64,000 nucleotides of DNA from Siphonodentalium dalli (Eukaryota > Mollusca > Scaphopoda > Gadilida > Siphonodentaliidae): contig CP136061.1 of the NCBI GenBank assembly GCA_032622095.1, positions 251,543,582-251,607,581 on the forward strand. The letters run 5' to 3'. The notes beneath the pieces were generated by a model, which was not told where the DNA came from, made no database searches, and saw only the letters and a list, made by a program, of their open reading frames with translations. Both the position numbers and the translations under genes were made by a program. This document shows, one piece after another, positions 6,048 to 64,000 of the stretch; position 1 is the stretch's first letter, and each line of letters begins with the position of its first letter.

Positions 6048-6447
6048 TTAACCCTTTACCCAACAAACCGGCCAAAACCGGCCAAATAAAGCTTCAACAG
6101 CCTAAAATATCTTCGGTCTGTCTCAATAGAACCATACAAATATGGATATCATTGGAACCGGCTCCTTGACCACATTGTGATAGTTACAGTTATACCCTGT
6201 GCCAATGCATTCTCTTATATATGCGAGTCGACCATAGGTCGCCTCGCATATATAAAAGAATGCATTGGCCTAAAAAAAATATTTTTTTAACACTTTTTAC
6301 CATTTTTTCTTACATTCTTTAACAATTTTATAATTTTTAATGTGTTAAGCCAATGCATTCTCTTATATATGCGAGGCGACCTATGGTCGACTCGCATATA
6401 TAAGAGAATGCATTGGCACAGGGCCGTTCTGTTGGGTAAAGGGTTAA
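6048..6447 (+). mobile_element. TTAA-flanked piggyBac-like MITE, copy 1
   Basis: A 392-bp element (6052-6443) is flanked on both sides by TTAA. Its terminal inverted repeat is CCCTTTACCCAACA. A TTAA target and a terminal CCC are typical of piggyBac-type elements. There is no transposase frame, so it is non-autonomous. Next to the left end are tandem GGCCAAAACC motifs. The rest is the two-hairpin cassette (6195-6423). Copies of nearly identical length lie at 19700-20096 (inverted) and 46351-46750 (inverted). The family assignment is inference from ends and target. Confidence 0.8.
6195..6423. repeat. Two-hairpin cassette (inside the TTAA MITE)
   Basis: Bounded by CCCTGTG and CACAGGG. Each hairpin has a 27-bp outer stem starting GCCAATGCATTCTC, one mismatch, five more pairs (CGACC/GGTCG) and a 3-base loop: 69 nt in all. 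The two hairpins are reverse complements of each other and are separated by an A+T-rich spacer. The whole can therefore fold as two hairpins or as one long foldback. Near-identical copies: 19724-19949, 21497-21865, 46375-46604 and 53894-54236. Partial copies: 2480-2632, 38521-38604, 47180-47254 and 63687-64000. Confidence 0.9.
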
Positions 6448-19699: not shown

Positions 19700-20096
19700 T
19701 TAACCCTTTACCCAACAGAAGGGCCCTGTGCCAATGCATTCTCTTATATATGCGAGTCGACCATATGTCGCCTCGCATATATAAGAGAATGCATTGGCTT
19801 AACACATTAAAAATTATAAAATTGTTAAAGAATGTAAGACAAAATGGTAAAAAGTGTTAAAATGTTTTTTTTAGGCCAATGCATTCTCTTATATATGCGA
19901 GGCGACCTATGGTCGACTCGCATATATAAGAGAATGCATTGGCACAGGGCATAACTGTAACTATCACAATGTGGTCAAAGAGCCGGTTCCAATGATATCC
20001 ATATTTGTATGGTTCTATTGAGACAGACCGAAGATATTTTAGGCTGTTGCAGCTTTATTTGGCCGGTTTTGGCCGGTTTGTTGGGTAAAGGGTTAA
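19700..20096 (-). mobile_element. TTAA-flanked piggyBac-like MITE, copy 2
   Basis: A 389-bp element (19704-20092) between TTAA repeats with the CCCTTTACCCAACA terminal inverted repeat, inverted relative to copy 1. It carries the two-hairpin cassette at 19724-19949. Its right-hand TTAA is also the start of the 68-bp satellite array. Confidence 0.8.
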
Positions 20097-20430
20097 CCTT
20101 TTCTATGCTAAAGCCTCATTGACGAGTAGTTATCCCATAGGAAATGTTCAGATAATAAGTTTAACCCTTTCTATTCTAAAGCATCATTGATGAGTAGTTA
20201 TCCCATAGGACATGTTCAGATAATAAGTTTAACCCTTTCTATACCAAAGCATCACTGATGAGTAGTTATCCCATAGGACATGTTCAGATAATAAGTTTAA
20301 CCCTTTCTATACTAAAGCATCATTGATGAGTAGTTATCCCATTGGAATGTTCAGATAATAAGTTTAACCCTTTCTATACCCAAGCATCATTGATGAGTAG
20401 TTATACCATAGGACATATATTCAGTATAAT
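20093..20430 (+). repeat. 68-bp satellite, short array (5 copies)
   Basis: Units start TTAACCCTTTCTATACTAAA and contain GTAGTTATCCCATAGGA and TTCAGATAATAAG. The period is 68 bp (20161 to 20229). The same satellite is amplified to about 31 copies at 54697-57116 in the opposite orientation. Confidence 0.9.
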
Positions 20431-20640
20431 AAGTTCAACAATTTTGAACTATTATCTAAACTATTCCCTCAATAAATAGGGTTCATTCTGCACTTTTATT
20501 TATCTGTCGTCTGCTTTTACCACATTAACATTCCTCCAAATGCATAATAGACCATTCCGATGCACACGTGTTAACTGACTGGGAGAATCCATTTAGTATA
20601 GAACGGGGTAAGTTGCAGAGTATCTAACAAGAATCAACCA
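20430..20640 (+). mobile_element. Flank of the 68-bp satellite: body of its parent element
   Basis: About 200 bp that match, reverse-complemented, 54515-54710. Shared blocks are TGTCGTCTGCTTTTACCAC (with changes), AATAATAGACCATTCC-like sequence and a terminal TTTAGTATAGAA. The same satellite-plus-flank arrangement at both loci shows that array and flank belong to one element. A fragment also lies at about 46835-46910. Confidence 0.6.
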
Positions 20641-21477: not shown

Positions 21478-21875
21478 CGGAAGTCGGGATTTTTTACCCT
21501 GTACCAATGCATTCTCTTATATATGCGAGTCGACCATAGGTCGCCTCGCATATATAAGAGAATGCATTGGCCGAACAATTTTTTATCATTTTTTTTAAAT
21601 AAATGTTTCTTACAATTTTTAGGACATAAAATAAAAAACATCCATTACCCTGCAGGGAGCCCCACACATATATAGAAGCATATAGAAGAGTGTCGTCTGC
21701 TCATGTTTGTCTGGGGCTCTGTATGGGTTAAATTATAAAATTGTTAAAGAATACAAGGAAAAATTTATTAAAATTGTAAAAAATTGTTAGGCCAATGCAT
21801 TCTCTTATATATGCGAGGCGACCTATGGTCGACTCGCATATATAAGAGAATGCATTGGCACAGGGTAAAAAAAGC
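21478..21875. mobile_element. TGTGACCC-family MITE, copy 1 (outer ends lost)
   Basis: Holds the two-hairpin cassette (21497-21865) with a long spacer that includes CTGTATGGGT and CATAAAATAAAAAACATCC. The same spacer is found at 53849-54282 and 63642-64000. The left flank keeps AAGTCGGGATTTTTTACC, but the outer TGTGACCCGCC ends seen in copy 2 are missing. Confidence 0.7.
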
Positions 21876-22831: not shown

Positions 22832-25800
22832 TAGATAACAGCAGTATGTGGATGATATAATGTCGCCGAGATAACAACAGTATGTGGGTGATATAATGTC
22901 GCCCAGATAACAACAGTATGTGGGTGATATAATGTCGCCGAGATAACAACAGTATGTGGGTGATATAATGTCGCCCATATAACAACAGTATGTGGGTGAT
23001 ATAATGTCGCCCGGATAACAACAGTATGTGGGTGATATAATGTCGCCGAGATAACAACAGTATGTGGGTGATATAATGTCGCCCAGATAACAGCAGTATG
23101 TGGATGATATAATGTCGCCCAGATAACAACAGTATGTGGATGATATAATGTCGCCCAGATAACAACAGTATGTGGATGATATAATGTCGCCCAGATAACA
23201 ACAGTATGTGGGTGATATAATGTCGCCGAGATAACAACAGTATGTGGATGATATAATGTCGCCCAGATAACAACAGTATGTGGGTGATATAATGTCGCCC
23301 AGATAACAACAGTATGTGGATGATATAATGTCGCCGAGATAACAACAGTATGTGGATGATATAATGTCGCCGAGATAACAACAGTATGTGGATGATATAA
23401 TGTCGCCGAGATAACAACAGTATGTGGATGATATAATGTCGCCGAGATAACAACAGTATGTGGATGATATAATGTCGCCGAGATAACAACAGTATGTGGA
23501 TGATATAATGTCGCCCAGATAACAACAGTATGTGGATGATATAATGTCGCCGAGATAACAACAGTATGTGGATGATATAATGTCGCCCAGATAACAACAG
23601 TATGTGGATGATATAATGTCGCCGAGATAACAACAGTATGTGGATGATATAATGTCGCCCAGATAACAACAGTATGTGGATGATATAATGTCGCCCAGAT
23701 AACAACAGTATGTGGATGATATAATGTCGCCCAGATAACAACAGTATGTGGATGAAATAATGTCGCCGAGATAACAACAGTATATGGATGATATAATGTC
23801 GCCCAGATAACAACAGTATGTGGATGATATAATGTCGCCCAGATAACAACAGTATGTGGATGATATAATGTCGCCCAGATAACAACAGTATGTGGATGAT
23901 ATAATGTCGCCGAGATAACAACAGTATGTGGATGATATAATGTCGCCGAGATAACAACAGTATGTGGATGATATAATGTCGCCGAGATAACAACAGTATG
24001 TGGATGATATAATGTCGCCCAGATATCAACAGTATGTGGATGATATAATGTCGCCGAGATAACAACAGTATGTGGATGATATAATGTCGCCCAGATAACA
24101 ACAGTATGTGGGTGATATAATGTCGCCCAGATAACAACAGTATGTGGATGATATAATGTCGCCGAGATAACAACAGTATGTGGATGATATAATGTCGCCG
24201 AGATAACAACAGTATGTGGGTGATATAATGTCGCCGAGATAACAACAGTATGTGGATGATATAATGTCGCCCAGATAACAACAGTATGTGGATGATATAA
24301 TGTCGCCCAGATAACAACAGAATGTGGATGATATAATGTCGCCGAGATAACAACAGTATGTGGATGATATAATGTCGCCCAGATAACAACAGTATGTGGA
24401 TGATATAATGTCGCCCAGATAACAACAGTATGTGGATGATATAATGTCGCCGAGATAACAACAGTATGTGGATGATATAATGTCGCCCAGATAACAACAG
24501 TATGTGGGTGATATAATGTCGCCGAGATAACAACAGTATGTGGATGATATAATGTCGCCGAGATAACAACAGTATGTGGATGATATAATGTCGCCGAGAT
24601 AACAACAGTATGTGGATGATATAATGTCGCCCAGATAACAACAGTATGTGGATGATATAATGTTGCCGAGATAACAACAGTATGTGGATCATATAATGTC
24701 GCCGAGATAACAACAGTATGTGGATGATATAATGTCGCCGAGATAACAACAGTATGTGGATGATATAATGTCGCCGAGATAACAACAGTATGTGGGTGAT
24801 ATAATGTCGCCGAGATAACAACAGTATGTGGGTGATATAATGTCGCCCAGATAACAACAGTATGTGGATGATATAATGTCGCCCAGATAACAACAGTATG
24901 TGGGTGATATAATGTCGCCGAGATAACAACAGTATGTGGATGATATAATGTCGCCGAGATAACAACAGTATGTGGATGATATAATGTCGCCCAGATAACA
25001 ACAGTATGTGGATGATATAATGTCGCCGAGATAACAACAGTATGTGGATGATATAATGTCGCCGAGATAACAACAGTATGTGGATGATATAATGTCGCCG
25101 AGATAACAACAGTATGTGGGTGATATAATGTCGCCGAGATAATAACAGTATGTGGATGATATCATGTCGCCCAAATAACAACAGTATGTGGGTGATATAA
25201 TGTCGCCCAGATAACAACAGTATGTGGATGATATAATGTCGCCGAGATAACAACAGTATGTGGATGATATAATGTCGCCGAGATAACAACAGTATGTGGG
25301 TGATATAATGTCGCCGAGATAACAACAGTATGTGGGTGATATAATGTCGCCGAGATAACAACAGTATGTGGATGATATAATGTCGCCCAGATAACAACAG
25401 TATGTGGATGATATAATGTCGCCCAGATAACAACAGTATGTGGGTGATATAATGTCGCCGAGATAACAACAGTATGTGGATGATATAATGTCGCCCAGAT
25501 AACAACAGTATGTGGATGATATAATGTCGCCCAGATAACAACAGTATGTGGATGATATAATGTCGCCGAGATAACAACAGTATGTGGATGATATAATGTC
25601 GCCCAGATAACAACAGTATGTGGATGATATAATGTCGCCCAGATAACAACAGTATGTGGATGAAATAATGTCGCCGAGATAACAACAGTATATGGATGAT
25701 ATAATGTCGCCCAGATAACAACAGTATGTGGATGATATAATGTCGCCCAGATAACAACAGTATGTGGATGATATAATGTCGCCCAGATAACAACAGTATG

Positions 25801-28800
25801 TGGATGATATAATGTCGCCGAGATAACAACAGTATGTGGATGATATAATGTCGCCGAGATAACAACAGTATGTGGATGATATAATGTCGCCGAGATAACA
25901 ACAGTATGTGGATGATATAATGTCGCCCAGATATCAACAGTATGTGGATGATATAATGTCGCCGAGATAACAACAGTATGTGGATGATATAATGTCGCCC
26001 AGATAACAACAGTATGTGGGTGATATAATGTCGCCCAGATAACAACAGTATGTGGATGATATAATGTCGCCGAGATAACAACAGTATGTGGATGATATAA
26101 TGTCGCCCAGATAACAACAGTATGTGGGTGATATAATGTCGCCGAGATAACAACAGTATGTGGATGATATAATGTCGCCCAGATAACAAAAGTATGTGGA
26201 TGATATAATGTCGCCCAGATAACAACAGTATGTGGATGATATAATGTCGCCGAGATAACAACAGTATGTGGATGATATAATGTCGCCCAGATAACAACAG
26301 TATGTGGATGATATAATGTCGCCCAGATAACAACAGTATGTGGATGATATAATGTCGCCGAGATAACAACAGTATGTGGATGATATAATGTCGCCCAGAT
26401 AACAACAGTATGTGGGTGATATAATGTCGCCGAGATAACAACAGTATGTGGATGATATAATGTCGCCGAGATAACAACAGTATGTGGATGATATAATGTC
26501 GCCGAGATAACAACAGTATGTGGATGATATAATGTCGCCCAGATAACAACAGTATGTGGATGATATAATGTTGCCGAGATAACAACAGTATGTGGATGAT
26601 ATAATGTCGCCGAGATAACAACAGTATGTGGATGATATAATGTCGCCGAGATAACAACAGTATGTGGATGATATAATGTCGCCGAGATAACAACAGTATG
26701 TGGGTGATATAATGTCGCCGAGATAACAACAGTATGTGGGTGATATAATGTCGCCCAGATAACAACAGTATGTGGATGATATAATGTCGCCCAGATAACA
26801 ACAGTATGTGGGTGATATAATGTCGCCGAGATAACAACAGTATGTGGATGATATAATGTCGCCGAGATAACAACAGTATGTGGATGATATAATGTCGCCC
26901 AGATAACAACAGTATGTGGATGATATAATGTCGCCGAGATAACAACAGTATGTGGATGATATAATGTCGCCGAGATAACAACAGTATGTGGATGATATAA
27001 TGTCGCCGAGATAACAACAGTATGTGGGTGATATAATGTCGCCGAGATAATAACAGTATGTGGATGATATCATGTCGCCCAGATAACAACAGTATGTGGG
27101 TGATATAATGTCGCCCAGATAACAACGGTATGTGGATGATATAATGTCGCCGAGATAACAACAGTATGTGGATGATATAATGTCGCCGAGATAACAACAG
27201 TATGTGGGTGATATAATGTCGCCGAGATAACAACAGTATGTGGGTGATATAATGTCGCCGAGATAACAACAGTATGTGGATGATATAATGTCGCCCAGAT
27301 AACAACAGTATGTGGATGATATAATGTCGCCCAGATAACAACAGTATGTGGATGATATAATGTCGCCCAGATAACAACAGTATGTGGATGATATAATGTC
27401 GCCGAGATAACAACAGTATGTGGATGATATAATGTCGCCCAGATAACAACAGTATGTGGATGATATAATGTCGCCGAGATAACAACAGTATGTGGATGAT
27501 ATAATGTCGCCCAGATAACAACAGTATGTGGATGATATAATGTCGCCGAGATAACAACAGTATGTGGGTGATATAATGTCGCCCAGATAACAACAGTATG
27601 TGGATGATATAATGTCGCCCAGTTAACAACAGTATGTGGATGATATAATGTCGCCGAGATAACAACAGTATGTGGATGATATAATGTCGCCCAGATAACA
27701 ACAGTATGTGGATGATATAATGTCGCCGAGATAACAACAGTATGTGGATGATATAATGTCGCCGAGATAACAACAGTATGTGGATGATATAATGTCGCCG
27801 AGATAACAACAGTATGTGGGTGATATAATGTCGCCGAGATAATAACAGTATGTGGATGATATCATGTCGCCCAGATAACAACAGTATGTGGGTGATATAA
27901 TGTCGCCCAGATAACAACAGTATGTGGATGATATAATGTCGCCGAGATAACAACAGTATGTGGGTGATATAATGTCGCCGAGATAATAACAGTATGTGGA
28001 TGATATCATGTCGCCCAGATAACAACAGTATGTGGGTGATATAATGTCGCCCAGATAACAACAGTATGTGGATGATATAATGTCGCCGAGATAACAACAG
28101 TATGTGGATGATATAATGTCGCCGAGATAACAACAGTATGTGGGTGATATAATGTCGCCGAGATAACAACAGTATGTGGATGATATAATGTCGCCCAGAT
28201 AACAACAGTATGTGGGTGATATAATGTCGCCCAGATAACAACAGTATGTGGATGATATAATGTCGCCGAGATAACAACAGTATGTGGATGATATAATGTC
28301 GCCCAGATAACAACAGTATGTGGGTGATATAATGTCGCCGAGATAACAACAGTATGTGGATGATATAATGTCGCCCAGATAACAAAAGTATGTGGATGAT
28401 ATAATGTCGCCCAGATAACAACAGTAAGTGGATGATATAATGTCGCCGAGATAACAACAGTATGTGGATGATATAATGTCGCCCAGATAACAACAGTATG
28501 TGGATGATATAATGTCGCCCAGATAACAACAGTATGTGGATGATATAATGTCGCCGAGATAACAACAGTATGTGGATGATATAATGTCGCCCAGATAACA
28601 ACAGTATGTGGGTGATATAATGTCGCCGAGATAACAACAGTATGTGGATGATATAATGTCGCCGAGATAACAACAGTATGTGGATGATATAATGTCGCCG
28701 AGATAACAACAGTATGTGGATGATATAATGTCGCCCAGATAACAACAGTATGTGGATGATATAATGTTGCCGAGATAACAACAGTATGTGGATGATATAA

Positions 28801-30896
28801 TGTCGCCGAGATAACAACAGTATGTGGATGATATAATGTCGCCGAGATAACAACAGTATGTGGATGATATAATGTCGCCGAGATAACAACAGTATGTGGG
28901 TGATATAATGTCGCCGAGATAACAACAGTATGTGGGTGATATAATGTCGCCCAGATAACAACAGTATGTGGATGATATAATGTCGCCCAGATAACAACAG
29001 TATGTGGGTGATATAATGTCGCCGAGATAACAACAGTATGTGGATGATATAATGTCGCCGAGATAACAACAGTATGTGGATGATATAATGTCGCCCAGAT
29101 AACAACAGTATGTGGATGATATAATGTCGCCGAGATAACAACAGTATGTGGATGATATAATGTCGCCGAGATAACAACAGTATGTGGATGATATAATGTC
29201 GCCGAGATAACAACAGTATGTGGGTGATATAATGTCGCCGAGATAATAACAGTATGTGGATGATATCATGTCGCCCAGATAACAACAGTATGTGGGTGAT
29301 ATAATGTCGCCCAGATAACAACAGTATGTGGATGATATAATGTCGCCGAGATAACAACAGTATGTGGATGATATAATGTCGCCGAGATAACAACAGTATG
29401 TGGGTGATATAATGTCGCCGAGATAACAACAGTATGTGGGTGATATAATGTCGCCGAGATAACAACAGTATGTGGATGATATAATGTCGCCCAGATAACA
29501 ACAGTATGTGGATGATATAATGTCGCCCAGATAACAACAGTATGTGGATGATATAATGTCGCCCAGATAACAACAGTATGTGGATGATATAATGTCGCCG
29601 AGATAACAACAGTATGTGGATGATATAATGTCGCCCAGATAACAACAGTATGTGGATGATATCATGTCGCCGAGATAACAACAGTATGTGGATGATATAA
29701 TGTCGCCCAGATAACAACAGTATGTGGATGATATAATGTCGCCGAGATAACAACAGTATGTGGGTGATATAATGTCGCCCAGATAACAACAGTATGTGGA
29801 TGATATAATGTCGCCCAGTTAACAACAGTATGTGGATGATATAATGTCGCCGAGATAACAACAGTATGTGGGTGATATAATGTCGCCGAGATAACAACAG
29901 TATGTGGATGATATAATGTCGCCCAGATAACAACAGTATGTGGATGATATAATGTCGCCGAGATAACAACAGTATGTGGATGATATAATGTCGCCCAGAT
30001 AACAACAGTATGTGGATGATATAATGTCGCCGAGATAACAACAGTATGTGGGTGATATAATGTCGCCGAGATAACAACAGTATGTGGATGATATAATGTC
30101 GCCGAGATAACAACAGTATGTGGATGATATAATGTCGCCCAGATAACAACAGTATGTGGATGATATAATGTCGCCCAGATAACAACAGTATGTGGAGGAT
30201 ATAATGTCGCCCAGATAACAACAGTATGTGGATGATATAATGTCGCCGAGATAACAACAGTATGTGGATGATATAATGTCGCCGAGATAACAACAGTATG
30301 TGGGTGATATAATGTCGCCCAGTTAACAACAGTATGTGGATGATATAATGTCGCCGAGATAACAACAGTATGTGGGTGATATAATGTCGCCCAGTTAACA
30401 ACAGTATGTGGATGATATAATGTCGCCCAGATAACAACAGTATGTGGATGATATAATGTCGCCGAGATAACAACAGTATGTGGATGATATAATGTCGCCC
30501 AGTTAACAACAGTATGTGGATGATATAATGTCGCCCAGATAACAACAGTATGTGGATGATATAATGTCGCCCAGATAACAACAGTATGTGGGTGATATAA
30601 TGTCGCCGAGATAACAACAGTATGTGGGTGATATAATGTCGCCCAGTTAACAACAGTATGTGGATGATATAATGTCGCCCAGATAACAACAGTATGTGGG
30701 TGATATAATGTCGCCCAGATAACAACAGTATGTGGATGATATAATGTCGCCGAGATAACAACAGTATGTGGATGATATAATGTCGCCCAGATAACAACAG
30801 TATGTGGATGATATAATGTCGCCGAGATAGCAACAGTATGTGGATGATATAATGTCGCCTAGATAACAACAGTATGTGGATGATATAATGTCGCCG
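22832..30896. repeat. 36-bp satellite, about 224 monomers, with higher-order repeats
   Basis: Monomer: AGATAACAACAGTATGTGGA plus TGATATAATGTCGCCC. Three sites vary often: CCCAG or CCGAG, TGGATG or TGGGTG, and AGATAAC or AGTTAAC. Rare private variants recur at fixed spacing. GATGAAATAA is at 23751 and 25659, AGATATCAAC at 24021 and 25929, and ATGTTGCC near 24660, 26568 and 28764. The spacings are 1908 bp (53 monomers) and then 2196 bp (61 monomers). The period is a multiple of 3, so one minus-strand frame stays open for 2683 codons (30869-22818). I do not regard it as a gene: the common variants all change the amino acid, and a second frame is also largely open. Confidence 0.97.
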
Positions 30897-30945
30897 ACTA
30901 GAGCGTTAACCGACCTAACGAGTTACTGATTTAAGGTTTCTAATC

Positions 30946-38520: not shown

Positions 38521-38604
38521 CTGACAATATTTACCTTGACCTTGATATGCAAGCCAGTGAATTATCCATATGGGAGACTCGCATATATAACAGAATGCAT
38601 TGGC
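38521..38604. mobile_element. Partial two-hairpin cassette
   Basis: Contains TGACAATATTTACCTTGACC and ends with CTCGCATATATAACAGAATG plus CATTGGC. This is the spacer plus right hairpin half of the variant at 2480-2632. Confidence 0.5.
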
Positions 38605-38735
38605 AACATATGTTTCATGGGTGAATAACCGCGTGTTCGTGCAATAAAGATAGTATAAATGCAGCTTATAAGACATGGGTAAACAGTACTAAACACTCAG
38701 ACGGTAACGATTGATCAGTTTATTGTGTCGATAAT
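38605..38735 (+). repeat. Interspersed repeat 'GGTGAATAACCGC', copy 1
   Basis: Shares CATATGTTTCATGGGTGAAT, GCAATAAAGATA and GGTAACGATTGATC with 38978-39098 and 40284-40404, all in the same orientation. Confidence 0.7.
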
Positions 38736-46321: not shown

Positions 46322-46804
46322 AATACGGCGCTATTGTCGTTGGAGCACATTTAACCCTTTACCCAACAGAAGGGCCCTGTGCCAATGCATTCTCTTATAT
46401 ATGCGAGTCGACCATAGGTCGCCTCGCATATATAAGAGAATGCATTGGCTTAACACATTAAAAATTATAAAATTGTTAAAGAATGTAAGAAAAAATGGTA
46501 AAAAAGTGTTAAAAAAAGATTTTGTTTAGGCCAATGCATTCTCTTATATATGCGAGGCGACCTATGGTCGACTCGCATATATAAGAGAATGCATTGGCAC
46601 AGGGCTAACTGTAACTATCACAATGTGGTCAAGGAGCCGGTTCCAATGATATCCATATTTGTATGGTTCTATTGAGACAGACCGAAGATATTTTAGGCTG
46701 TTGAAGCTTTATTTGGCCGGTTTTGGCCGGTTTGTTGGGTAAAGGGTTAATGTAAACTGCTACGCGGTTTACTTAATGTGCTCCAGCGACCATAGTGCCG
46801 TATC
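46322..46804. repeat. Older palindrome interrupted by the TTAA MITE
   Basis: The left arm (46322-46352, containing GTTGGAGCACATT) and right arm (46775-46804, AATGTGCTCCAGC) are imperfect inverted repeats of about 31 bp. A small hairpin GTAAACTGCTACGCGGTTTA plus C lies beside the right arm. The MITE at 46351-46750 sits between them, so it inserted in or next to the loop of an existing palindrome. Confidence 0.55.
46351..46750 (-). mobile_element. TTAA-flanked piggyBac-like MITE, copy 3
   Basis: A 392-bp element (46355-46746), TTAA on both sides, ends CCCTTTACCCAACA. Contains the two-hairpin cassette (46375-46604) and the GGCCGGTTTTGGCCGGTTTG segment near the right end. Same orientation as copy 2 and nearly identical to it. 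Confidence 0.8.
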
Positions 46805-47137
46805 CTTCAATAACACACACGCCACTACGTTCATTTCTTAAATGAATAATAGACCATTCCTATTTACTCTTTTCAACTGACTGTGAGAATACATTTAATA
46901 TAGAAAGGATTACCGTACATGCTGCCAATTTGTGACGCAGGAGTTGGTCGTAAATTTTTAATAAGTTTTCAATTTTATCTTTCCTTGGTTTTGGAAAGCA
47001 TGCTATTAACAAATTAAAAACTTGGCATGTTCTTGGAGTTCAATAAATATTGCATGTTATCTATCATGTCGAATGATTTATATAACTCAGTGTTATACAT
47101 ATGAAAGCATTTTGATTTGTCATTCTACATGCGTTTA

Positions 47138-47340
47138 ACCCTTTCAGTGCCAGGTACGATTTTTGTATCAATCCATATACCCTGTGCCAATGCATTCTCT
47201 TATATATGCGAGTCGACCATAGGTCGCCTCGCATATATAAGAGAATGCATTGGCCTAACAATTTTTCATCATTTGTTATTATTTTTTACAATTTTTTACA
47301 ATTTTAATAATTTTTTCTTATATTCTTTAACAGACTTATT
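47138..47340. mobile_element. Half two-hairpin cassette behind a TTAACCC end
   Basis: TTAACCCTTTCAGTGCCAGG (47136) looks like another TTAA-CCC terminus. It is followed by one full hairpin (47180-47254) and the A+T-rich spacer. The second hairpin is missing. GTGCCAGGGAATCTTACG near 47352 echoes the left end. Confidence 0.5.
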
Positions 47341-47647: not shown

Positions 47648-50442
47648 TTGCGCGATGATAAAGAAATAGGATCATTAACTTGTCGCGACGCCTCAGTTGT
47701 TGACTATATGATCTGCTCGTTTCCAGCTTTGACCATGGTCGCCAGTTTTACGATTTGTGAACAAAATAAATTATTCTCAGATGTTCATAAAGCCATCACA
47801 ACTGAATTAGCGATTGGTTTGGATAATGAAAGTGAAATTTGTACCGATAAACTCAACTCGGAAATATTAACACGTAAGTGGGACCCGACTAGAACAACCG
47901 AATTTATATGGAACCTAGACCCAATTGAGATTGCCGAACTAAAGCACATGCTAAATGACTACCAAACTCTTAAGCTTGATTTTACTAAAGTGGAAATTAT
48001 CGAAGTAGTGGGAAAGATATCCAACATACTTAACAACGCGGCATCTGAAACTTTTGGAACTTATAGTAAGAAACAGAGAAAGCAAAGACAAAAACGAAAT
48101 ACCAAACCGTTGTTTAACTCAGCTTGTTGGAAAGCCCGAACAACATATCGCAAAGCAGAGCGACAAACTAAGCAACACCCCAGTGGGTTATCAAGGCAGT
48201 ATATGAGGGAAATGTCCAGGCAATATAAACGTGAGATGAATGGGGCTATGGAACTGCACAGATAATAATACATGGGTCGCGAAATGTCAGAGTTGAAAAA
48301 GCGAAACACAAAGAAGTTTTTGTCAAACCTGAACAAACGTGACAAAGATATGACTAGTTCCATACAACTTGATACACTAGAAACATATTTTAGAGATTTG
48401 AACGCGATATCATACGCCGATTACCCTGAACTGAAATGCGAAGATGGACACTCGGACAATTTAAGCACGCTAAACCAGCCAATTTCAGTCGATTTCAGGC
48501 AATTAATGGCCTTAGAAATAACAAATCGTCCGGTGACGACAAGCTCTTTAACGAATATATAAAATGTTCTTGTGATACATTAATTGATATCTACTGCAAA
48601 GTTTTTAACCTAGTTTTTGAGTCTGGTTGCGTCCCAGACTCATGGGGGATAGGAACGATTATCCCACTGTACAAAAACAAAGGTAACATGAATAACCCCA
48701 AGAATTACAGGCCCATCACTCTCTTGATTTGCTTCGGAAAACCGTTTACGAAAATTCTTTCGAATCGTTTGTATTCATATGTTGAATGTGATAAACTTTT
48801 ATGCGAATACCAATCTGGATTCCGGAAAGGTTATTCGACGACTGACAATATTTTCACCTTGCATATTTTGAGCGAAATGACTCGATGCTTGAAACGGAAC
48901 TTATACTGTGCATTTATCGATTTTGAAAAAGCTTTCGATAAGATATGGAGGCAGGGACTCTGGCATAAATTGTTAGCCATCGATATAAATGGAAAAATCT
49001 ACAGAATAATACGTAATATATACTCAGATATTAAGTCAAAAGTAAAATTTGGAAACTGTTTGTCAAATTCTTTCCCCTGCGTATCAGGGGGTTAGGCAAG
49101 GTGATGACCTTTCTGCCCTCTTATTTGCAATATATCCCAACGATTTGGAAGATTTTCTTAAAGAAGAAGGGGTAGATGGTTTGTCAAAAACAACAGATGA
49201 CTTGAAAAATAACTTTGATGTCTATGTGAGACTTTTTGTTATACTATATGCGGATGACACGGTTCTGTTCGCCGAAACACCCATGAAACTTCAGAATGCT
49301 CTCAATGCTTTTCAAAGATATTCCCAAAAGTGGAAACTGACAGTTAATGTCGAAAAAACTTAGATTATGCTGATTTCAAAACGCAGTCTACCGAAAGGTA
49401 TGAAATTCTATTATGACGGAATAGAAATTGAATATGTGAAATACTTTAACTACCTTGGAATCATACACACTAATTCAGGCTCATTCTCTTTGGCTAAAAA
49501 GACTCTAGCGGATAAGGCCACGAGAGCAATGTACTCGATAATATCAAAGTCTAGAACTCACTGTCTCTCAGTTAAAAATCAATTTGATTTGTTTGATGCC
49601 CAAGTTACTCCTATACTGACGTACTGTTGTGAGGTGTGTGGATATGGAAATAACGATATTTTTGAAAATATACACAAAAAGTTCTTGAAATATGTACTTC
49701 ATTTGAAAACATCTACTCCAGATTACATGATATATGGTGAAAGTGGCCGTTTCCCCCTTAATATCACTATATATTTGCGTATTATCAAGTATTGGCTGAA
49801 AGTGAGGAACATGACCGACACTAGATACTGTAAGATTATGTACTTGTTGGAATTGCAGCTCAGTGAAAATACATCCGCGAAGTTCGAATGGATTGAGAAA
49901 GTGAAGACAGTGCTAACCCACTTTGGCCAAGGCCATCTTCTTTACACCGACACACGTTTACGTTCGGAAGAAATAATCACATATGTTAAATGCAGTCTCA
50001 TTAATCAATATAGGGCCGTTTGGAAGTCAGCTATAGACCAATCCAGTAGAGGTAATATATACAAGATTTTTAAACACAATATCTGTTTCGAAATGAATTT
50101 GGACTGCCTTGACAACAAAAACAGAAGAACATTGTGCCAATTCCGAACATGTAATCATAGACTGCCCATAGAGAGAGGAAGATGGAATGACACTAATGTA
50201 ATGGAACGAACATGTCCCTTGTGTAATAATTATAAACTTGGCGATGACCTTCATTACTTGCTCGAATGCAACCACTTTATAGATGTTAGAAATCGTTTCT
50301 CCCGGCTAAATATATCAGAAAGAGACACGTGACCATCGATATTCTTGACGACTTATTTAATATGACCGATATATCATCCCTCCGCCGACTATGTTCGCCG
50401 ACATTAGGGAAATTAACCGTTATTTTTAGCTTTATATATTGA
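47648..50442 (+). pseudogene. 5'-truncated, broken non-LTR retrotransposon ORF2 (endonuclease tail, reverse transcriptase)
   Basis: About 930 codons remain. First the tail of an APE-type endonuclease (about 47680-47805): ASVVDYM is normal, but the expected terminal SDH motif reads SDVHKA, so the catalytic His is displaced. Next comes a basic linker and the reverse-transcriptase domain, with AFIDFEKAFD (about 48910-48939), GVRQGDDLSALLF (about 49093-49131), the catalytic YADD (49247-49258) and FNYLGI. The C-terminus carries a CX2CX10HX4C finger (about 50210-50270). Breaks: two stops in a row at 48263-48268, a frameshift near 48500, another near 49080, TAG at 49361-49363, and a shift near 50310, after which the frame runs on to a stop at 50440-50442. 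The family is probably in the Jockey/CR1-like group, but the clade is not settled. It is inactive. Confidence 0.9.
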
Positions 50443-53848: not shown

Positions 53849-54282
53849 TGTGACCCGCCATATCAAATCCAGTCGTAAGTCGGGATTTTTTTACCCTGTG
53901 CCAATGCATTCTCTTATATATGCGAGTCGGCCATAGGTCGCCTCGCATATATAAGAGAATGCATTGGCCCTAACAATTTTTTATCATTTTTTTTAAATAA
54001 ATGTTTCTTACAATTTTTAGGACATAAAATAAAAAACATCCATTACCCTGCATATAGAAGAGTGTCGTCTGCTCATGTTTGTCTGGGGCTCTGTATGGGT
54101 GAAATTATAAAATTGTTAAAGAATACAAGAAAAAATTATTAAAATTGTAAAAAATTGTTAGGCCAATGCATTCTCTTATATATGCGAGGCGACCTATGGT
54201 CGACTCGCATATATCAGAGAATGCATTGGCACAGGGTAAAAAAAATCCCGACTTACGACTGGATTTGATATGGCGGATCACA
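53849..54282 (+). mobile_element. TGTGACCC-family MITE, copy 2 (complete)
   Basis: A 434-bp element with a long terminal inverted repeat: TGTGACCCGCCATATCAAAT on the left and ATTTGATATGGCGGATCACA on the right. It continues inward through GTCGTAAGTCGGGAT to the two-hairpin cassette (53894-54236). The spacer has GCTCATGTTTGTCTGGGGCT. No clear target duplication. Frames over it are shadows. Confidence 0.8.
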
Positions 54283-63641: not shown

Positions 63642-64000
63642 TGTGACCCGCCATATCAAATCCAGTCGTAAGTCGGGATTTGTTTACCCTGTGCCAATGC
63701 ATTCTCTTATATAAGAGAATTCATTGGCCTAACAATTTTTTATCATGTTTTTTAAATAAATGATTCTTACAATTTTTAGGACATAAAATAAAAAACATCC
63801 ATTACCCTGCAGGGAGCCCCACACATATCATATATAGAAGCATATAGAAGAGTGTCGGCTGCTCATGTTTGTCTGGGGCTCTGTATGGGTGGAATTATAA
63901 AATTGTTAAAGAATACAAGAACAAATTATTAAAATTGTAAAAAATTGTTAAGCCAATGCATTCTCTTATATATGCGAGGCGACCTATGGTCGACTCGCAT
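63642..64000 (+). mobile_element. TGTGACCC-family MITE, copy 3 (cut by window edge)
   Basis: Starts TGTGACCCGCCATATCAAAT, as in copy 2. The left hairpin of the cassette is reduced to a short stem (TTCTCTTATATAAGAGAA, 63702-63719), so most of the inner stem and loop has been deleted. The spacer and the beginning of the right hairpin are intact up to the end of the window. Confidence 0.8.

Follow-up and report, generated by a model that had tools for sequence, protein, structure and literature searches.

A palindromic two-hairpin cassette present in at least four MITE carriers of the TTAA and AWWT target types

Elements of the piggyBac type typically have ends starting with CCC, and how cut-and-paste MITEs attain tens of thousands of copies is, to our knowledge, unsettled. 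Sola2 elements have AWWT target duplications, according to the accessible part of one report (PMC3627910). Two other described systems resemble the cassette analyzed here, which we found in the genome of the scaphopod Siphonodentalium dalli. Galileo and Foldback have in common with it internally repetitive inverted repeats and chimeric copies, which the available portion of PMC3573991 proposes to originate from exchange among copies. Pack-TIR elements arising by FoSTeST capture, as presented in the accessible sections of PMC8277862, have in common with it a sequence that is captured in a TIR element and then multiplied. The comparisons described below suggest that different kinds of jumping genes can share one working part, in tens of thousands of copies in one large genome.

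In the window, that is, the whole 64-kb stretch of DNA analyzed, the initial annotation had pointed to two hairpins that are reverse complements of each other and are bounded by CCCTGTG and CACAGGG, and this architecture was borne out (Table 1). The CCCTGTG motif lies outside both hairpins and pairs the opposite ends of the cassette, like a terminal inverted repeat. Folded as DNA, hairpin 2 forms 26 pairs and, beyond one mismatch, 5 more that close a 3-nt loop (-36.3 kcal/mol, z -15.4); folded as RNA, the complete cassette pairs end to end with itself (-144.8 kcal/mol, z -23.5). The 18-nt cassette end, with at most 2 mismatches allowed, matches 14 times in the window vs 0 times in 100 shuffles.

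Table 1. The cassette, its carriers, and their remnants in the 64-kb window
Feature	Positions	Strand	Remarks
Carrier A copy, TTAA to TTAA	6048..6447	+	
Cassette, CCCTGTG to CACAGGG	6195..6423	+	within the A carrier; 18-nt-end matching and direct reading
Hairpin 1, 67 nt	6202..6268	+	
AT-rich spacer, 81 nt	6269..6349	not assigned	
Hairpin 2, reverse complement of hairpin 1, 67 nt	6350..6416	-	DNA folding
Carrier A copy	19700..20096	-	cassette 19724-19949
Carrier A copy	46351..46750	-	cassette 46375-46604
Carrier B copy, both termini present	53849..54282	+	cassette 53894-54236
B-type cassette, B sequence on the left side only	21478..21865	+	cassette 21497-21865
Carrier B copy ending at the window edge	63642..64000	+	cassette from 63687; hairpin 1 internally deleted, hairpin 2 cut
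Carrier C left end, half cassette	47135..47266	+	single hairpin 47187-47253
Decayed carrier D, start TTAAACCC at about 2437, inner end GCTGAAATTTTGCGAAAA	2437..2632	+	cassette 2480-2632
Half-hairpin remnant, possibly from a D copy	38569..38605	not assigned	

Reading of the individual copies supported the presence of the cassette within a TTAA-flanked family (carrier A) at 6048, 19700, and 46351. Its assignment to a second family with TGTGACCCGCC ends (carrier B) holds at 53849 and 63642, but not fully at 21478, where B sequence is present on one side only. The copy noted behind a TTAACCC end at 47138 does belong to another carrier, C, but contains one hairpin rather than two. Two cassettes that had been described as nearly alone turned out to be something else: the one at 2480 lies in a decayed copy of D, the fourth family, and the one at 38521 is just a half-hairpin remnant. 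Several other features of the window were observed alongside these copies. About five 68-bp tandem units (20093-20439; consensus start TTAACCCTTT) run onward from the TTAA end of the A copy at 20096; an RVT_1 reverse-transcriptase fragment (48430-49095, E 1.4e-17), probably of a non-LTR element, lies ~1 kb past the C copy; and a 36-bp tandem array of about 224 copies, with 96% matches and long minus-strand open reading frames, occupies positions 22833-30897.

Exact matches to the 33-nt cassette end number 123,995 in the genome (62,106 plus 61,889; 2.23 Gb in 9 contigs), and the control yielded 0. The targeted loci came from the first 54 Mb of contig C1 and from the window; among ten 8-kb pieces taken at round positions of contigs C2-C9, hairpin motifs, mainly of the D type, were detected in 3. 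The cassette is present in at least four MITE carriers, which differ in the way they accommodate it. In carrier A (TTAACCCTTTACCCAACA), it adjoins one terminus and is separated by ~147 bp from the opposite one, whereas in carrier B it is central and its spacer encompasses an extra TTAA-like module. This module, present in the B-type cassette at 21497-21865 and in B copies generally, has ACCCATACAGAGCCCC-like ends; given that a TTAACCCATAGAGAGCCCC-like sequence adjoins the B copies at loci L014 and L070, it looks like a nested TTAA MITE. Carrier C (TTAACCCTTTSAGTGCCAGG) has a single hairpin: the examined C copies resemble the one at 47138, and none of the C ends is matched by a second hairpin end belonging to it. 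Copies of carrier D (TTAACCCTTYCATGACKGGAGC) are either short, with an older loop, or long (L021, L030, L091), with an A/B/C-like loop and arrays of an AT-rich unit that is found also in the spacers of A, B, and C. These last three carriers have one and the same hairpin consensus, and their AT-rich spacer arms show 75-90% identity at aligned positions, a figure inflated by the AT-richness. Exact junction counts on both strands were 38,678 for the A right end, 18,296 for B, 11,745 for C, and 4,638 for the D left end; these counts are based on different words and cannot be added to the 33-nt count. The outer sequences, initially taken to be unrelated, are so when B is compared with A, C, and D; the latter three have common TTAACCC termini and hence are not demonstrably unrelated to one another. 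Two regions of contig C1 (735735-779403 and 820017-920823) contain cassette ends spaced ~14,558 bp and ~11,175 bp apart, respectively, and look like long-period tandem arrays with A or C copies. One A copy, L060, is flanked left and right by one and the same outer end, a structure that exchange through the palindromic cassette would be expected to produce.

The flanks of the carriers fall into two types. TTAA is present on both sides of A in 92 of the 100 strand-wise matches (that is, in 46 of the 50 elements read on both strands), of C in 38 of 48 (24 elements), and of D, the oldest carrier, in 12 of 21; 13 duplicate loci are left out of these counts. Identical 4-bp flanks of B (ATAT, AAAT, or ATTT; AWWT) were observed in 19 of 23 rows, which take in one locus twice (L076, L077) as well as the cassette-less L169. 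Judged by their flanks, carriers A, C, and D appear to be ‘piggyBac-like,’ resembling piggyBac-type MITEs in the TTAA on both sides of most copies and in inverted ends starting with CCC but differing in that their interior module also occurs in a family of another target type. At the 8 loci read among the 128 PF13843 matches listed, no autonomous piggyBac partner for A, C, and D was found, these loci having other TTAACC sites or none. Carrier B can be likened to Sola2-type MITEs by its duplications alone, its interior being the common cassette: ATAT, AAAT, and ATTT are the same as those printed for Sola2 in the accessible part of PMC3627910.

The edges of the cassette are sharply defined. Its boundary is CCCTGTG at the left and right ends of the cassette in A, in B, at the left ends in C and D, and in one context outside the four carriers (E), and the D right-end consensus has T in place of the first C, followed by CCTGTG. 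The boundary falls on one base in about seven junctions, which are counted as independent because their flanks differ, the two sides of B making up one junction because B is symmetrical. The cassette has its own terminal inverted repeat with constant ends, except for the first base of the D right-end consensus. No clear target duplication was detected directly outside CCCTGTG/CACAGGG, and none was detected in A or D; TA/TA is found there only in B and at L015 and, being palindromic in B, is ambiguous as a target duplication.

Carriers without the cassette are practically absent from the samples. Among the loci chosen by outer sequence, a cassette start, be it intact, truncated, or decayed, is located at the junction in 39 of the 40 loci for A, all 20 for B, 38 of the 40 for C, and all 20 for D; the exceptions are L109, which retains just CCCTGT, and L050 and L111, which show no cassette start. 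Part of these loci (12 of the 40 for A, L049-L060; 10 of the 40 for C, L109-L118; and all 20 for D) were chosen for a junction absent from the exact lists, a choice that enriches decayed or empty carriers and hence works against the stem result reported below. The genome-wide pattern for empty carriers, which covered B, occurs in 6 places; of the 2 that were fetched, one is not B and the other, L169, is a B element without the cassette that also lacks part of one arm and is probably a deletion. In the samples, and genome-wide for empty B, we did not find the combination of cassette copies at many unrelated sites with empty carrier sites. Because nearly all sampled carriers hold the cassette, its acquisition seems to have been a single event in each carrier, after which it was passed on with that carrier.

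Mutations private to one copy and variants shared by copies show different distributions in the hairpins. In A (34 copies), private mutations hit the stems (21 of 3,468 sites) as often as the spacer (7 of 1,132) and not significantly less often than the outer left part before the probe (19 of 1,744; p 0.065); in C, they were found at 34 of 1,991 stem sites vs 53 of 3,056 interior sites in all 39 copies, and at 11 of 1,113 vs 30 of 1,804 in the 22 long copies (p 0.15). Variants shared by copies of A number 6 in the 3,468 stem sites vs 43 in the 1,132 spacer sites. Columns with a variant in at least 2 copies account for 5 of 260 in the stems vs 44 of 497 elsewhere (loops left out; Fisher p 1.3e-4), a test that lessens but does not remove the non-independence of shared variants within a subfamily. 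By family, the shared-variant columns in stems vs others are 3/104 vs 19/126 in A and 0/52 vs 19/157 in long C; in B, at 2/104 vs 6/214, no stem constraint was seen. The A set consists of 40 fetched loci minus 9 dropped (L050, L053, L054, L060, and 5 duplicates) plus 3 window copies; for C, 45 loci were tried and L109, L111, L120, and 3 duplicates were dropped, and the column test used the 22 of the 39 copies with long interiors. The 20 B copies comprise 14 of the 20 B loci of one sample, 5 from another, and 1 window copy. Positions inside or beside homopolymer runs were excluded from the divergence counts. Thus, in A and C, inserted copies decay and source copies keep the stem, which points to constraint on the multiplying copies rather than to correction after insertion; the constancy of the stem among source copies is a sign of constraint in these two families. 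Private mutations are somewhat fewer in the stems too, albeit not significantly, which leaves room for a weaker effect on copies already inserted. The D hairpins differ from those of A, B, and C by compensatory changes in both arms, chiefly at pairs 28/38, 29/37, and 3/63. Among 154 gapless hairpins, the T side of the T.C mismatch is unchanged in 154 and the C side in 151. Arm-to-arm correction of inserted copies was looked for and not detected: the same 154 hairpins contain 135 single-arm, 26 both-arm compensatory, and 3 both-arm non-compensatory changes, and all 26 compensatory ones are in hairpins of D copies and therefore represent mostly inherited differences between families.

We consider it somewhat probable that at least four MITE lineages each captured, a single time, a palindromic unit with defined ends, which has since been copied essentially only with its carriers. 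The data show that the carriers differ, that the boundary falls on one base, that empty carriers are nearly missing from the samples, and that, in A and C, the stem is constant among source copies while single copies mutate. An old palindromic unit, consisting of two reverse-complement hairpins, an AT-rich spacer, and CCCTGTG/CACAGGG, would have existed already in D; the families that captured it, once each and presumably by insertion of a discrete unit, would be three with TTAA and one with AWWT (Sola2-type) duplications. The oldest carrier, D, in its long-spacer form, might have been the donor, an assignment that rests on few copies. Copying afterwards would be performed by whichever transposases recognise the carriers' own ends, and the hairpin would stay intact in multiplying copies, probably since it aids the multiplication or survival of the carriers. 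The lack of a clear target duplication at the edges and of stem constraint in B speaks against this reading, as does our failure to find any autonomous element bearing the cassette ends.

One alternative is template switching, by which every carrier would have gained its cassette as a copy made from some other element in the course of repair, a model proposed for animal TIR elements in the accessible part of PMC8277862. Palindromes do rearrange within families, as in a single-hairpin A copy (L008), the left-left A copy L060, and two B copies (L076, L078), and certain B-type cassettes end at A/T or G runs beyond the ends (21478, L015, L026, L074). Template switching at cruciforms, which the initial annotation invoked, would not on its own, however, put about seven independent carrier junctions at one base, given that microhomology junctions should vary. 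Among 109 two-ended cassettes (duplicates included), both ends could be classed in 99, at least one end remaining unclassed in the other 10, and only 1 of the 99, L136, is of mixed families, being a C inserted into a D. The shared boundary base and the pairing of the ends through CCCTGTG fit the capture of one discrete unit better than random template switching, which we regard as a tentative and rather unlikely possibility. Another proposal of the initial annotation, that the cassette is an independent mobile hairpin parasite of MITEs, appears very unlikely for the present-day cassette. Of 100 exact ends among the matches listed, 94 belong to the four carriers (43 A, 19 B, 28 C, and 4 D, the A and C tallies taking in tandem-array copies); 87 of these 100 classifications come from position lists and 13 from reading loci L015, L018, L021, and L023-L031. 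The other 6, namely E (L023, L024), F (L026, L028), and both ends of L015 (flanks ATTTTTTA and TAAAAATATT), represent three contexts beyond A-D and would be compatible with independent movement; counted by locus, these are 5 of about 78. However, L026 and L028 share both flanks, as do L023 and L024, and so are repeats or duplications rather than separate insertions, L015 and L026 keep a B-type interior and may derive from B, target duplications are not consistent, and the sampled carriers do not fall into filled and empty versions. What holds is that one cassette occurs in families with unlike ends, whose two outer types differ in termini and target duplications and have nothing visibly common outside CCCTGTG, but not that it currently moves by itself.

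All outer types could also descend from a single ancestral element by divergence or deletion, a scenario under which there would be no separate cassette. The termini of A, C, and D, which all begin with TTAACCCTT, may be distantly related; B, however, has other termini and its own 4-bp duplications, and the sequences directly beside the cassette in the four carriers (their inner flanks) share nothing visible despite the identity of the hairpin consensus in A, B, and C, so that common descent of the whole elements is highly improbable. The hairpin could also owe its retention to transcription, supplying a small-RNA pathway or helping to evade one. The near-perfect stems, the end-to-end RNA fold, and the compensatory changes between D and A/B/C are in line with such a role; however, a scan of the window against Rfam matched no family at the gathering score, and roles at the DNA level predict the same pattern, so we deem this explanation improbable. 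More speculatively, the cassette might be a portable cis-acting amplifier that raises the copy number of any carrier MITE, whichever the transposase, e.g., via replication stalling or repair favoring a second copy. Were this doubtful idea true, the spread across target types would mean that selection acting among selfish elements had favored an accessory module common to them.

A single module whose ends are the same and whose stem consensus is unchanged in carriers of different target specificities constitutes a natural experiment on MITE copy number. Our literature search recognised no description of such a module, and exact scans of viral and prokaryotic collections, which are silent on other eukaryotes, produced 0 matches. 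Nested MITEs provide a partial parallel: a C inserted at TTAA within D (L040, L136) is a MITE inside a MITE seen directly, whereas the cassette is a fixed part of several families, with the same ends in each. The chimeras of Galileo, as described in the available portion of PMC3573991, join subfamilies of one element, whereas here one module is fixed across families with different target duplications. Likewise, Pack-TIR elements, according to the accessible sections of PMC8277862, capture non-TE sequence with varied breakpoints, whereas in the present case several families contain a single palindromic module whose ends are constant.
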